Assembly: GCA_015065975.1 (NCBI GenBank)
Contig: SVPG01000008.1
Coordinates: forward strand, 1 to 64,000
Direction of reading: 5' to 3'
DNA length: 64,000 nt
From: Oscillospiraceae bacterium
Lineage (GTDB): Bacteria > Bacillota > Clostridia > Oscillospirales > Acutalibacteraceae
The notes beneath the pieces were generated by a model, which searched no databases, was not told where the DNA came from, and worked only from the letters and a program-made list of their open reading frames with translations. Each line of letters starts with the position of its first letter. Position 1 is the stretch's first letter. Shown here piece by piece: positions 34,022 through 40,008 of this stretch. The position numbers and the translations under genes were made by a program.

Positions 34022-34050
34022 ATTATATTACCCAGCTCATTTATTGTCAA
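34022..34050 (-). promoter_or_regulatory. consensus promoter of alaS
   Basis: TTGACA (34050-34045), 17-nt spacer, TATAAT (34027-34022) on the minus strand. The stretch 34051-34192, between this and the divergent promoter, holds nothing I can assign. Confidence 0.9.
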
Positions 34051-34192: not shown

Positions 34193-34221
34193 TTGAAAAC
34201 TTGCAAACAATATCGTATAAT
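34193..34221 (+). promoter_or_regulatory. sigma-A promoter of the riboswitch-diguanylate cyclase unit
   Basis: TTGAAA (34193-34198), 17-nt spacer, TATAAT (34216-34221). Transcription should begin near 34228, just ahead of the aptamer. Confidence 0.88.
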
Positions 34222-34237
34222 GTAGACACAATCACGA

Positions 34238-34334
34238 ATTGAATATCAGCAAAATCGGTGAAAACCGATGACGCAAAGCTAAAGGGGCTTCCCGTATTAT
34301 TACGAATGCCAGCCAGTTGCATCTTTCAAACGGG
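34238..34334 (+). promoter_or_regulatory. cyclic-di-GMP-I (GEMM) riboswitch aptamer
   Basis: The region shows the GEMM-I core: stem P2 ATCGGTGAAAACCGAT with a GAAA-type loop, then the nearly invariant GACGCAAAGC. The second arm AAGGGGCTTCCC... and the 3' motif ATGCCAGCCAGTTGC complete it. The outer stem is less certain. A perfect-palindrome terminator follows as expression platform, then the ribosome site of a GGDEF protein. The family binds c-di-GMP, so the gene's product probably feeds back on its own mRNA. Confidence 0.88.
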
Positions 34335-34338
34335 TTTT

Positions 34339-34363
34339 GCCGATGCAGCTGCATCGGCTTTTC
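34339..34363 (+). terminator. riboswitch terminator
   Basis: GCCGATGCAG and CTGCATCGGC form a 20-nt perfect palindrome followed by TTTTC, ten bases after the aptamer and 25 nt before the start codon. The upstream ACGGGTTTTGCC could form part of an alternative antiterminator. Confidence 0.8.
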
Positions 34364-34387
34364 TGCTTTTCTTAAGGAGGTATCTTT

Positions 34388-35743
34388 ATGAGCAGAAACA
34401 CTATTATGATAGTTGACGACAAGGATATAGGGCGCGATATACTTGCCGCGGTGTTCAGCCGTGACTACCGTATTCTCATGGCTTCCGACGGACTCGAGGC
34501 GATCAATCTGATCGATTGCGAAAAGGATAATATCGCTCTGATAATCCTCGATATAATCATGCCTGTCATGGACGGTTTCGACGTTCTCGACCATATGCAC
34601 AAGACCTCTCTTATAAGCGCTATCCCCGTCATTATGGTCACGGGTCAGCTCACTCCCGACATATCTCTGTCCTGTTACTCGCGTGGAGCTTTTGATATTA
34701 TCGAAAAGCCTTACGACATCAGTATAGTAAAGCAGCGCGTAAACAACGCCATCGAGCTCTACACCTACAAGAATCATCTCGAAAGCCTCGTCAGCGAGCA
34801 GACAAAAAAGCTCGAGACTCAGGCAAGCGAACTGAGAAAAACGGTGAAGGAGCTTCGGATAAGTGAAGAGCGATTCCGTATCGCATCGGTCCACAGCTCG
34901 AGCATAATTTTCGAATTTGACGTCGATTCGCAGGAAGGAATAATCCTCAGCGGCAGCGGCAGACTGAGCAGAGGCGAACTGACCCAGGTTTCCTTCGATT
35001 CTATAATTTCAAGACTGCACCCCGACGAGCGCGAAAAGGTTCAGCAAATGATCGACAGGGTTTTCTCCGGCTCCGACGAGGAACGGTGCGAGGTCAGAAT
35101 GCGCGGACTCAACGGTAAAAACACATACAACTGGTACATCGCCACTCTGACTCCGATAAGATCAAACGACGGCGAAACGATCAAGATACTCGGTTCGCTT
35201 CGCGACATCAACACGCAGTATCTCGAAACGGCCGATCTGCGCAGCCGTGCAGAGATTGATATGCTTAGCGGTCTGCTCAACCGCGCAACCTGCGAGAGCA
35301 ATATCCGCACAAGGCTCGAAAACACCAACCGTTCGAAATATTCCGCTTTTATCCTCTTCGATATCGACGATTTCAAATCGGTCAACGATCTTTACGGTCA
35401 CGACATCGGTGACCGAGCCATCGCTCTGACCGCACACGTGATCAGATCGCAGTTCAGCCATTCGGATATCGTGGGGCGTTTCGGCGGCGATGAATTCGTC
35501 GTATATCTCGAAAACATTCCGGGCGAAGATATTCTTATCAGAAAATTCGACCGTATATGCAGGAAACTGAAAAATTACGCCGAGACCGAAGAGGGATTCC
35601 CGTCGCTTTCGGTCAGTGCGGGCGCATCACTTTTCGACAGCACGCTGCCCTTTGAGCAGATTTACAAAGAAGCCGATACTGCCCTTTACGACGTGAAATC
35701 GAGCGCAAAAGGCGGTTTTGAAACATTCCGCAGGAACGGATAA
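34388..35743 (+). CDS. response regulator-PAS-GGDEF diguanylate cyclase
   Basis: This 451-residue protein has an N-terminal receiver domain (residues 4-120; phospho-acceptor Asp55 in ILDIIMPVMDGF), a coiled-coil linker (about 130-160) and a PAS domain (about 163-285). The C-terminal GGDEF domain has its motif at 366-370 in RFGGDEFVVYL. It should make c-di-GMP under control of phosphorylation. The residue pattern upstream of GGDEF is SHSD where the inhibitory I-site RxxD would be. The ATG is 7 nt after AAGGAGG. A c-di-GMP riboswitch precedes it. Confidence 0.93.
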   Translation: MSRNTIMIVDDKDIGRDILAAVFSRDYRILMASDGLEAINLIDCEKDNIALIILDIIMPVMDGFDVLDHMHKTSLISAIPVIMVTGQLTPDISLSCYSRGAFDIIEKPYDISIVKQRVNNAIELYTYKNHLESLVSEQTKKLETQASELRKTVKELRISEERFRIASVHSSSIIFEFDVDSQEGIILSGSGRLSRGELTQVSFDSIISRLHPDEREKVQQMIDRVFSGSDEERCEVRMRGLNGKNTYNWYIATLTPIRSNDGETIKILGSLRDINTQYLETADLRSRAEIDMLSGLLNRATCESNIRTRLENTNRSKYSAFILFDIDDFKSVNDLYGHDIGDRAIALTAHVIRSQFSHSDIVGRFGGDEFVVYLENIPGEDILIRKFDRICRKLKNYAETEEGFPSLSVSAGASLFDSTLPFEQIYKEADTALYDVKSSAKGGFETFRRNG

Positions 35744-35761: not shown

Positions 35762-35804
35762 ATCACATTTTCATCACACGCCGTGATATAATAGGTTATA
35801 TCAC
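35762..35804 (+). promoter_or_regulatory. ATCAC/GTGAT repeat region ahead of the two-component pair
   Basis: Four ATCAC/GTGAT pentamers occur at 35762, 35773, 35783 and 35800. The last two form a perfect 8-bp inverted repeat, GTGATATA-6-TATATCAC, that contains a TATAAT -10 box (35787-35792). The -35 box is poor, which suits an activated promoter. The response regulator itself is a plausible binder. Confidence 0.5.
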
Positions 35805-35828
35805 AATTTAATTTCTGAGGTGATACAC

Positions 35829-36521
35829 TTGAGCGTTCCCGAACAGATAAAGATACTCGTCGCCGATGACGAAGAAAGAATACGAAAGATAATTACCGAT
35901 TTTCTCACAAGGGAAGGTTACACCGTAATCGAGGCGTCAAACGGTGCACAGGCTCTCAAGCTCTGCAGCGGTGTTTCCGAATCGGACAAGCCCGACCTCG
36001 TCATTCTCGACATCATGATGCCCGTCATGGACGGTCTGACGGTACTCGAGGAGCTTCGTCGCACAACCGACATTCCCGTTATTCTTCTGACTGCAAAATC
36101 CTCCGAAAGCGATCAGCTCGGCGGATTCAGAATGGGCGCAGACGACTACATCACAAAGCCCTTCTCCCCCAGCCTGCTCGTTGTCAGAGTACAGGCAATT
36201 CTCAGAAGACGAGGAAAGCTCGGAACAAAGCGTATCCAGTGCGGAAATGTTCACATCGACGAGATGGCTCACGCCGCATATCTCGGCTCGGAGCAGCTTG
36301 AACTCACGCCAAAAGAATACGATCTGCTTCTGTATTTCATCGAAAACAAGGGCATCGCACTCTCACGCGAAAAAATACTCAACGGCGTATGGAACTATGA
36401 CTATTTCGGAGACCTCAGAACGGTCGACACCCACGTAAAACAGCTCCGGGCAAAGCTCAAAGACTCGGGCGATATGATAGTCACGGTAAGAGGCGTCGGT
36501 TACAGACTTGAGGTGAGGTAG
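35829..36521 (+). CDS. OmpR-family response regulator
   Basis: This 230-residue regulator has a receiver domain with the acidic pocket VADDEE, phospho-acceptor Asp61 in ILDIMMPVMDGL, Thr in LLTAKS and Lys in TKPF. A C-terminal winged helix (about 130-230) ends in GDLRTVDTHVKQLRAKL...VTVRGVGYRLE. The start is TTG at 35829, 5 nt after GAGGTGA; an upstream GTG overlaps that site. The kinase gene follows after one base. Confidence 0.94.
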   Translation: MSVPEQIKILVADDEERIRKIITDFLTREGYTVIEASNGAQALKLCSGVSESDKPDLVILDIMMPVMDGLTVLEELRRTTDIPVILLTAKSSESDQLGGFRMGADDYITKPFSPSLLVVRVQAILRRRGKLGTKRIQCGNVHIDEMAHAAYLGSEQLELTPKEYDLLLYFIENKGIALSREKILNGVWNYDYFGDLRTVDTHVKQLRAKLKDSGDMIVTVRGVGYRLEVR

Positions 36522-36522
36522 C

Positions 36523-38067
36523 TTGAAAACCTCTATCAAAACAAAATTCTTTCTCGTCCTTTTCGGTATAGTCATTCTTTTTGTTTCTCTCACCATACTT
36601 TTCAACACGCTTTTCCTCAAATCGTATTACACAAGCAAAAAGGAAGCCATGCTCACCGAATGTTTCAATTACATTTCTTCGCTTACATTCAATGAGCACG
36701 ACATCGGCAAACGGCTTGAATCGCTCGAGGAAAACAAGAATATCGAGATTCTCATAATCGATTACCGCAGGAGAGTCTTTTTCTGCAGCAAGGGCATCCC
36801 CGATGCCCTTTTTATTCCCGTCGACGAATCGGGAGATTTTGATATCCGATGGTTCAGAGAATGGCTTATGCCCGAGGATTACGAGAGCGGCTCTGTTGAA
36901 ATATTCACTTCAAAGCCTCAGCTCGGCTGGCGATACAACGAGGAGCTCGCCGCTCAGTATCTCAGTCTTTACGCAAAATCGACCAAGACATTTGACAATA
37001 CCGCTTATCCGTTTTATATTATAATCAACACTCCGATGGCTGCTATCGAAGACGGTGTAGAAATCGCCAACCGTTTTGCGCTTATCATCGGAATGGTCAC
37101 AATCCTCATCGGAAGTATCGTTACATTTTTCCTCGGCAATCAGCTTACAAAACCGATACTCAAGATCAATCAGACCGCAAGAAAGATCTCGCAGCTTGAT
37201 TTCAGCGAAACGCTCGCCATCAATTCACGCGACGAGCTGGGCGAGCTTGCAGGCAGCGTGAATATTCTTTCAAACGAGCTTGAATCAAAAATCAACGAGC
37301 TCAGTCTCGCAAACGAAAAGCTCAAGGAAGATATCAAGGTAAAGACGAAAATTGATTTCATGCGGCGTGAGCTGATCTCAAACGTATCGCACGATCTCAA
37401 GACCCCGCTCTCAATAATCCTCGGATACTGCGAAGGTCTTCAGGCAAACGTGAACAGCGACGACAGGGAGTATTACTGCAGCGTCATTGAGGACGAGGCT
37501 ATGCATATGAGCCGCATCGTTTCGACGCTTCTGAAGCTTGCCGAGCTTGAATCGGGAACCGATTCTCTTGAGATGTCACGGTTCAGCCTGACAGAGCTTG
37601 CCCGCGACCGATTCGAAAAGATATCATATCTTATAAAGGAACATTCCATCACAACCGATTTTCACGCTGACGGCGATTATTTCATCAATGCCGACAGGTT
37701 CAAGATCGAGGATGTTCTCAACAATCTTCTTTCGAATGCTATCCACCATTCTCCCGACGGAGGGCACATTTCCCTCTCGCTCAAGCGCGAGGACGACGAT
37801 GTTGTCTGCAGTGTTTTCAACCGAGGAGAGCATATCCCCGATGACAGTCTCGACCTCATATGGGAAAGCTTTTACAAGGTGGACAAATCACGCACAAGAA
37901 GCTACGGCGGTTCGGGGCTCGGTCTGAAAATCGTGAGCACCATTCTCAATTCACACGGCGCGCAGTATCACGCCGAAAACGTGGATTCGGGCGTGTGTTT
38001 CTCTTTCCGTATGAAGATTGAATCGGACACCGAAATCAACAATTCAAAGGATGATTCAAATGAATGA
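36523..38067 (+). CDS. sensor histidine kinase
   Basis: This 514-residue kinase has membrane helices at about 9-30 and 184-205, an extracytoplasmic sensor between them and a HAMP linker (to about 260). HisKA has phospho-acceptor His290 in ISNVSHDLKTPLSIILGYCEGL. The HATPase domain shows N box LNNLLSNAIHHSPDGG, F box and GGSGLGLKIV. It is the partner of the preceding regulator. The TTG start lies after GAGGTGAGG. It overlaps the next gene by 8 nt. The signal sensed is unknown. Confidence 0.94.
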   Translation: MKTSIKTKFFLVLFGIVILFVSLTILFNTLFLKSYYTSKKEAMLTECFNYISSLTFNEHDIGKRLESLEENKNIEILIIDYRRRVFFCSKGIPDALFIPVDESGDFDIRWFREWLMPEDYESGSVEIFTSKPQLGWRYNEELAAQYLSLYAKSTKTFDNTAYPFYIIINTPMAAIEDGVEIANRFALIIGMVTILIGSIVTFFLGNQLTKPILKINQTARKISQLDFSETLAINSRDELGELAGSVNILSNELESKINELSLANEKLKEDIKVKTKIDFMRRELISNVSHDLKTPLSIILGYCEGLQANVNSDDREYYCSVIEDEAMHMSRIVSTLLKLAELESGTDSLEMSRFSLTELARDRFEKISYLIKEHSITTDFHADGDYFINADRFKIEDVLNNLLSNAIHHSPDGGHISLSLKREDDDVVCSVFNRGEHIPDDSLDLIWESFYKVDKSRTRSYGGSGLGLKIVSTILNSHGAQYHAENVDSGVCFSFRMKIESDTEINNSKDDSNE

Positions 38068-38686: not shown

Positions 38687-38725
38687 AATATGCGGTTTAT
38701 ATATCTTGAGAAGGTGCGATTTTCT

Positions 38726-39055
38726 ATGATTATGTTTAAACGGCAATGCAGACACTGTTCATTTGAATATGAATACGACCACGAAAAGGCTGCAAATCTC
38801 ATAACCTTCTGCCCGAACTGTCATTCTTACGATCATCTTGAATGCGAATACGGATTCGGCCCTGTTGTTCCCTGCACAATATATCACGGCAGCGAGAAGA
38901 TCGGAATGGTCTCCTATGATACAGAAGATCCGCACAAATACCGAATCGATTCGGACACATTTTGTCTGCACAAGGTTCTGGAAAACCGCTATCTCAATGC
39001 ATTACTTGAAGCAACAGACTTAATTTCCGATTTGCTTGCCAAAGGAGAACAATAA
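38726..39055 (+). CDS. small zinc-ribbon protein of unknown function
   Basis: This 109-residue protein begins with a CxxC...CxxC zinc ribbon (RQCRHCSFEYEYDHEKAANLITFCPNCHSYD, residues 6-36). A beta-rich part follows, CTIYHGSEKIGMVSYDTEDPHKYRIDSDTF, and a helical tail. There is no signal or membrane helix. The ATG at 38726 is 9 nt after GAAGGTG. Its last base is the first base of the next gene, so the pair is coupled. I do not recognise the family. Confidence 0.8.
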   Translation: MIMFKRQCRHCSFEYEYDHEKAANLITFCPNCHSYDHLECEYGFGPVVPCTIYHGSEKIGMVSYDTEDPHKYRIDSDTFCLHKVLENRYLNALLEATDLISDLLAKGEQ

Positions 39056-40008
39056 TGAACACAATCGATGTGCGCGACTACGAAATCGAGATAAACGGAA
39101 AGATAATAAGATTTCCCGCTTCCGCTCAGGAGCTGACCGAAGCTCTTGGCGAACCGAGAATCGTTGGAGAAGGAGAAAAAGCGAACTACATTTACGACGA
39201 GCTCGGCATTTCTTTTGAGTGCGGAAGTTCCCTGTATCTCAAAAAGAACAAGGGCTTTATCGACAGACATCATCTTGTGACCTACTGTACGATATTCGTA
39301 TGTGAAGAGGGGTGTCTGAGCGGTGAGCACGCAGCAGTCCCTTATCGCGGAACGCTGACCTTTTTCGGAAAATGCTGGGACAGCTTCGACCCCTTCCTCG
39401 GTCAGCAGCAAGCTCTTTGGAAAGACGGAGATACCTGGAAAACCTCGCACATGGGAGTGATAATGCGCGGCAAAAAGGACGAGCCGAATTACACGGACGG
39501 AAAGCTCAACAAAACCGTCTATCTTTCATTCAAGCCTGTTCGTCCGAAGAGCACGGAAAACTATAATATTACCGAAACAGGTGAAGATTCTCTCGAATTT
39601 GAGCATTTCAATTTCAAGCTCGCTGTTATACAGGAGCTTATGTACACCCGGGAGCTGCTCAAGCCGTATTTTGATATATACGACTATCTGAAATTCAAGA
39701 AGAGCAAGGCAAACACCGAATCCTTCAAAAACGTAAAGCCTGCTGTCGATTTCTTTAAGAATCTGCAGATACCACGTTCACTTGCCGATAAAATTGAAGA
39801 GATAAATATGGACGGCGGAAACGAGATATACATGAACATCTGCCCGATGTGGGACGGTGAGGACGACCGTTTTGATATCACCGAGGTTTCGCCCGATGAA
39901 TTAAAACAGTTTCCGAACTTAAAAGCAATGACTCTTCTTCCCAACGACAAGATCGAAAACGTCAGAGAAATCGCCAAAAAACAGGGAATAACCGTCACAA
40001 GCGTCTGA
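39055..40008 (+). CDS. uncharacterised protein, DUF6892/DUF7738-like
   Basis: This 317-residue soluble protein begins with a beta-rich domain (residues 1-150: EIEINGKIIRFPASAQELTEALGEP...YDELGISFECGSS) in which an RWD/YcgL-like strand pattern is repeated. An all-alpha linker follows (about 185-240). The C-terminal domain contains NEIYMNICPMWDGEDDRFDITEVSPDELKQFPNLKAMTLLPND. That last stretch recalls DUF6892-type proteins, which I recall only loosely. It overlaps the zinc-ribbon gene by one base. Confidence 0.8.
   Translation: MNTIDVRDYEIEINGKIIRFPASAQELTEALGEPRIVGEGEKANYIYDELGISFECGSSLYLKKNKGFIDRHHLVTYCTIFVCEEGCLSGEHAAVPYRGTLTFFGKCWDSFDPFLGQQQALWKDGDTWKTSHMGVIMRGKKDEPNYTDGKLNKTVYLSFKPVRPKSTENYNITETGEDSLEFEHFNFKLAVIQELMYTRELLKPYFDIYDYLKFKKSKANTESFKNVKPAVDFFKNLQIPRSLADKIEEINMDGGNEIYMNICPMWDGEDDRFDITEVSPDELKQFPNLKAMTLLPNDKIENVREIAKKQGITVTSV

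Follow-up and report, generated by a model that had tools for sequence, protein, structure and literature searches.

Does the window analyzed here, a stretch of 64,000 nucleotides from an Oscillospiraceae bacterium, contain an enzyme for second-messenger synthesis that is controlled through its own mRNA, and has such control taken the place of product inhibition of the enzyme? The first-pass annotation of this DNA had described a c-di-GMP-I (GEMM-I) riboswitch in front of a diguanylate cyclase with a changed inhibitory site (I-site), had suggested that feedback had moved from the protein to the mRNA, and had left the direction of the switch open. That GEMM RNAs are located upstream of cyclase and phosphodiesterase genes has been reviewed previously (PMC3971182), as has the finding that many GEMM-associated genes are involved in c-di-GMP production or degradation (PMC7266159); the passages of both reviews on these gene associations give Sudarsan et al. 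2008 as their source. The locus is therefore a new, conserved example of a known arrangement. Although the gain is modest because of this, the locus provides a clean, testable case of a second-messenger synthase under direct feedback via its own mRNA.

The leader, the cyclase and their conservation in a congener

Transcription of the cyclase leader is expected to start at about position 34228, downstream of a sigma-70-type promoter (TTGAAA-N17-TATAAT; 34193..34221, plus strand) that matches 11 of the 12 consensus bases. The aptamer (34238..34324, plus strand) is located between this promoter and an intrinsic terminator, at a spacing of 63 nt from the cyclase gene. In a cmscan analysis it matched model positions 1-87 of 87 of RF01051 with 66.2 bits (E 9.7e-11), compared to a curated cut-off of 35 bits, and the proposed GEMM-I assignment thus withstood the covariance-model search. 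With a full-length aptamer above the gathering score, a terminator-type platform and a position upstream of a c-di-GMP metabolism gene, the leader resembles other members of this class (PMC3971182, PMC7266159), and nothing in the window aptamer departs from it. The terminator hairpin GCCGATGCAGCTGCATCGGC-TTTTCTGCTT (34339..34358, plus strand) had been called perfect. This holds for its stem, which consists of 8 bp closed by the loop AGCU, but not for the U-tract TTTTCTGCTTTTC (34359..34371, plus strand), which is interrupted. A Shine-Dalgarno sequence (AAGGAGG; 34374..34380, plus strand) ends the leader 7 nt 5' of the ATG. We also considered a hairpin in which UUUCUGCU, 3' of the terminator, pairs with AGCAGAAA in the first codons and encloses the Shine-Dalgarno sequence (window positions 34360-34398). 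As a device for sequestering the start site this hairpin was rejected and is treated as a chance pairing, because it is absent from the congener G243. On the minus strand, a perfect consensus promoter (TTGACA-N17-TATAAT; 34022-34050) is directed towards alaS.

The gene behind the leader starts with the ATG at 34388 and encodes a REC-PAS-GGDEF protein of 451 aa (34388..35743, plus strand), in which the Pfam domains Response_reg, PAS_3 and GGDEF were recovered in agreement with the earlier reading. The GGDEF domain (PF00990) scored 115.4 bits against a cut-off of 23.8, and the active-site motif is intact at residues 366-370 (35483..35497, plus strand), so that the protein is predicted to be an active diguanylate cyclase. 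Its receiver domain retains LDII, MVTG and EKPY, which we take to be the surroundings of the receiver phospho-acceptor Asp, Thr and Lys. Five residues N-terminal to GGDEF, the I-site position reads SHSD instead of RxxD (residues 357-360; 35456..35467, plus strand), the Arg being replaced by Ser and the Asp being retained. This earlier observation was confirmed with the best solved homologue, the REC-GGDEF protein 6zxm (FRKSDIISRFGGEEF aligned to FSHSDIVGRFGGDEF): the register of the I-site is right, because the homologue has RKSD opposite SHSD without a gap. Like other REC-GGDEF response-regulator cyclases (6zxm; PleD, 1w25), the window protein combines a receiver carrying the phospho-acceptor Asp with a canonical GGDEF motif, but it differs from both in the intervening PAS domain and in the Arg to Ser change.

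An ortholog search that covered 4 genomes of the genus and a wider set of 398 family genomes identified the orthologous cyclase together with its leader in G243 only; beyond G243, none of the 398 genomes contained a protein match with E <= 1e-45. The G243 protein is 60% identical (E 1.4e-183) and is likewise encoded downstream of a GEMM-I aptamer. Moreover, the two genomes share the order of genes to either side of the cyclase: alaS (on the opposite strand), riboswitch, cyclase, OmpR-type regulator, histidine kinase and nitroreductase. The G243 promoter retains TATTGA...TATAAT. In the RNA, 5 of 6 pairs of P2 (two via a double change), all 4 pairs of the P3 hairpin (two via a double change) and all 8 terminator pairs (one via a double change) are retained, as are 8 of the 9 antiterminator pairs, two of them via a change on one side. 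Because the G243 locus is orthologous and its RNA stems have changed on both sides, the arrangement is not a chance occurrence, and riboswitch and cyclase form a real, conserved unit. It should be noted here that the covariation is thin, since the expression platform is known in two sequences only. A close relative that retains RxxD, which would have spoken against the I-site change, was not encountered: the only ortholog found reads NHSD and thus lacks the Arg too. Hence, neither protein carries the RxxD five residues before GGDEF that marks an I-site-regulated diguanylate cyclase.

Direction of the switch and identity of the ligand

At its 3' side the aptamer carries the strand AGUUGCAUC (34315..34323, plus strand), whose complement, GAUGCAGCU (34342-34350), lies within the terminator hairpin, in its 5' arm and loop. 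The two segments could pair as an antiterminator of 8-9 bp, with the aptamer strand as its 5' half. The 9-bp match had a p-value of 0.002 in 500 shuffles of the aptamer strand. According to its placement via the Rfam alignment, the same strand presumably holds the conserved C that contacts the ligand in c-di-GMP-I crystal structures. Constrained folding, a form of the folding check proposed earlier, showed that the antiterminator and the aptamer/terminator state are mutually exclusive, and by computation the expression platform is therefore coupled to the aptamer. Once the 5' arm of the terminator is transcribed, the antiterminator is the predicted minimum-energy state (−28.8 versus −25.5 kcal/mol for the aptamer state), and the difference is larger when half of the 3' arm is out (−33.5 versus −25.7 kcal/mol). 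At full length the two states are near-equal (−38.0 versus −37.4 kcal/mol), so that the binding energy of the ligand can decide between them.

These competing pairings suggest the following course of events. At low c-di-GMP levels, 34315-34323 would pair with 34342-34350, block the terminator and allow the cyclase to be made. At high levels, the bound aptamer would retain its 3' strand and leave the 5' arm free, whereupon the terminator would form and transcription would stop. As a bound aptamer would withhold its 3' strand and thereby permit termination, the outcome would be negative feedback on the supply of the enzyme, while the REC and PAS domains may provide additional control of its activity. 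We thus consider that the c-di-GMP-I riboswitch is a transcriptional OFF switch of the downstream diguanylate cyclase, with a probability of roughly 0.78. The direction, previously unassigned, is most likely OFF as judged from computations on two sequences. OFF-type c-di-GMP-I riboswitches that act via premature termination are established in C. difficile (PMC8428550). The window riboswitch shares with one of these, Cdi-1-3 of the flagellar operon, a lowering of downstream expression by c-di-GMP, which is predicted here, but it differs in that its target is a cyclase, so that the output would feed back on the ligand.

Two results temper this assignment. In G243, where the antiterminator match is 8 bp (shuffle p-value = 0.044), the aptamer-plus-terminator state is favoured already without ligand (−45.8 versus −41.8), which counts against an OFF switch. 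Furthermore, the shuffle test is weak for the class as a whole, because among 66 GEMM-I leaders with a terminator-like hairpin the antiterminator geometry was found at p <= 0.05 in 6 cases, with about 3 expected by chance. The opposite direction, in which c-di-GMP would promote read-through and the cyclase would reinforce its own synthesis by positive feedback, finds a precedent in leaders of our survey with an ON-type layout, where the 5' arm of the terminator overlaps the 3' end of the aptamer (for example L159, L161 and L170). Here, however, the terminator begins 15 nt past the aptamer and shares no bases with it, and the strand that does overlap the aptamer belongs to the antiterminator; we therefore regard an ON switch as unlikely. 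Both layouts do occur among relatives, as the overlap at these other loci indicates. One leader with the 5' arm of the terminator (GGCTGCA) at the aptamer end recurs at L159, L161, L162, L170, L199 and L248, and an ON layout is expected for it.

The ligand is predicted to be c-di-GMP. The Rfam alignment places G, not A, at RF01051 model position 12, which discriminates c-di-GMP from cGAMP and which we take to be the ligand-contacting G20. The enzyme has the usual GHDIGD motif, which presumably includes the diagnostic position, and not the Ser of Hypr enzymes. Both features argue against the idea that the aptamer ligand is a different cyclic dinucleotide (cGAMP, the ligand of GEMM-Ib) or that the enzyme makes one as a Hypr-type GGDEF protein, and this is very improbable even though cGAMP-sensing GEMM-I variants and cGAMP-making GGDEF enzymes are known (PMC6456294).

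I-site status of riboswitch-linked cyclases

The absence of Arg in both the window cyclase and its ortholog, each preceded by a riboswitch, invites the explanation that the riboswitch assumed feedback after the enzyme had lost its I-site, product inhibition having moved to the mRNA. This is compatible with the OFF mechanism, but assigns it a different evolutionary cause. We therefore compared riboswitch-linked GGDEF genes across the family. GEMM-I was present in 50 of 300 family genomes, and nine of about 78 GEMM-I loci examined, including the window, have a GGDEF gene directly downstream, as assigned by the longest open frame rather than by gene finding. L158 is not counted among the nine, as its cyclase frame begins only after 430 nt, with another possible frame in between, and L132, the GEMM-I locus of G164, has no cyclase behind it. 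In an order-level sample of 60 further GEMM-I loci, nearly all from other families, GGDEF was not found as the nearest long downstream frame, so that this sample added nothing to the nine. RxxD is lacking in four of the nine (window, SHSD; L133, NHSD; L140, TGND; L200, YAHS) and retained in the other five (L134, RPCD; L146, RSSD; L153, RKSD; L164, RCSD; L168, RSTD). As background, canonical GGDEF domains were selected by a regular expression, and 80 distant relatives (22-43% identity) were included for the I-site counts, not as orthologs. RxxD was present in 20 of 31 domains sampled in the family and in 42 of 62 in other relatives, which fits the share of 'more than 60%' given in the literature (PMC4937426).

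In this small sample, I-site loss is thus not enriched among the riboswitch-linked cyclases (4/9 compared to 11/31; Fisher p-value = 0.71 against the family background and 0.49 against both backgrounds pooled). Within the genome of the window, RxxD was found in one of four canonical GGDEF domains; two of the three others besides the window cyclase also lack it, and these have no riboswitch. Based on the RxxD counts and the single GEMM-I in the genome, riboswitch and I-site are not alternatives, and loss of the I-site is ordinary. The earlier suggestion that feedback had moved from protein to mRNA is consequently not supported, and we consider such a transfer improbable. These sequences speak against it as a rule, although the sample is small and this one lineage could still differ. 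Indeed, because the two brakes coexist within the set, feedback at the mRNA level looks like a separate layer and not a substitute. Loss of RxxD does not prove that product inhibition is lost either. Canonical I-site inhibition is expected neither for the window enzyme nor for XCC4471 and YfiN, but YfiN retains RxxD and has lost the secondary site (PMC3838380). XCC4471, which has no RxxD, is inhibited competitively (PMC4937426), and for this reason product inhibition of the window enzyme may likewise persist. In the part of the literature covered, we found no paper testing the pairing of c-di-GMP riboswitches against I-site status; the present survey offers a small set for such comparisons, in which some riboswitch-linked cyclases have an I-site and others lack it. 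Two GEMM-I aptamers in close tandem were observed at L138-L140 (G061), L143 (G234), L177 (G021), and L147 and L180 (G289); tandem c-di-GMP-I riboswitches have been published (PMC9481103).

Other c-di-GMP components and neighbouring genes

The genome that contains the window is a 1.8 Mb draft in 43 contigs and is 87% complete. It encodes nine GGDEF and three EAL domains, and the aptamer described here is the only GEMM-I found in it. PilZ and MshEN were not found at the thresholds used, nor was there a match to GEMM-II, in a search that had no positive control, the control genomes having given no match. Since the draft is incomplete, these receptor absences are weak evidence; if they hold, the GEMM-I RNA would, of the receptor types searched for, be the only one recognised for c-di-GMP in this genome. 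The sole GEMM-I being located on a cyclase without I-site, and PilZ, MshEN and GEMM-II not having been found, one could go further and propose that c-di-GMP homeostasis in this lineage rests on one RNA and that RNA-level feedback has replaced protein-level feedback, but we regard this as improbable.

Downstream of the cyclase, genes for an OmpR-type response regulator (35820-36521, plus strand) and a histidine kinase (36523-38067, plus strand) follow in the order common to G243. The gap between the cyclase and the regulator contains an inverted repeat, GTGATATAA-N4-TTATATCAC (35783-35804), which overlaps a TATAAT sequence and could be a candidate operator of the OmpR-type regulator; the repeat was not found in the corresponding gap of G243. 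Further downstream, a protein with DUF6892 and DUF7738 (39055-40008) adjoins a small zinc-ribbon-like protein (38690-39055).
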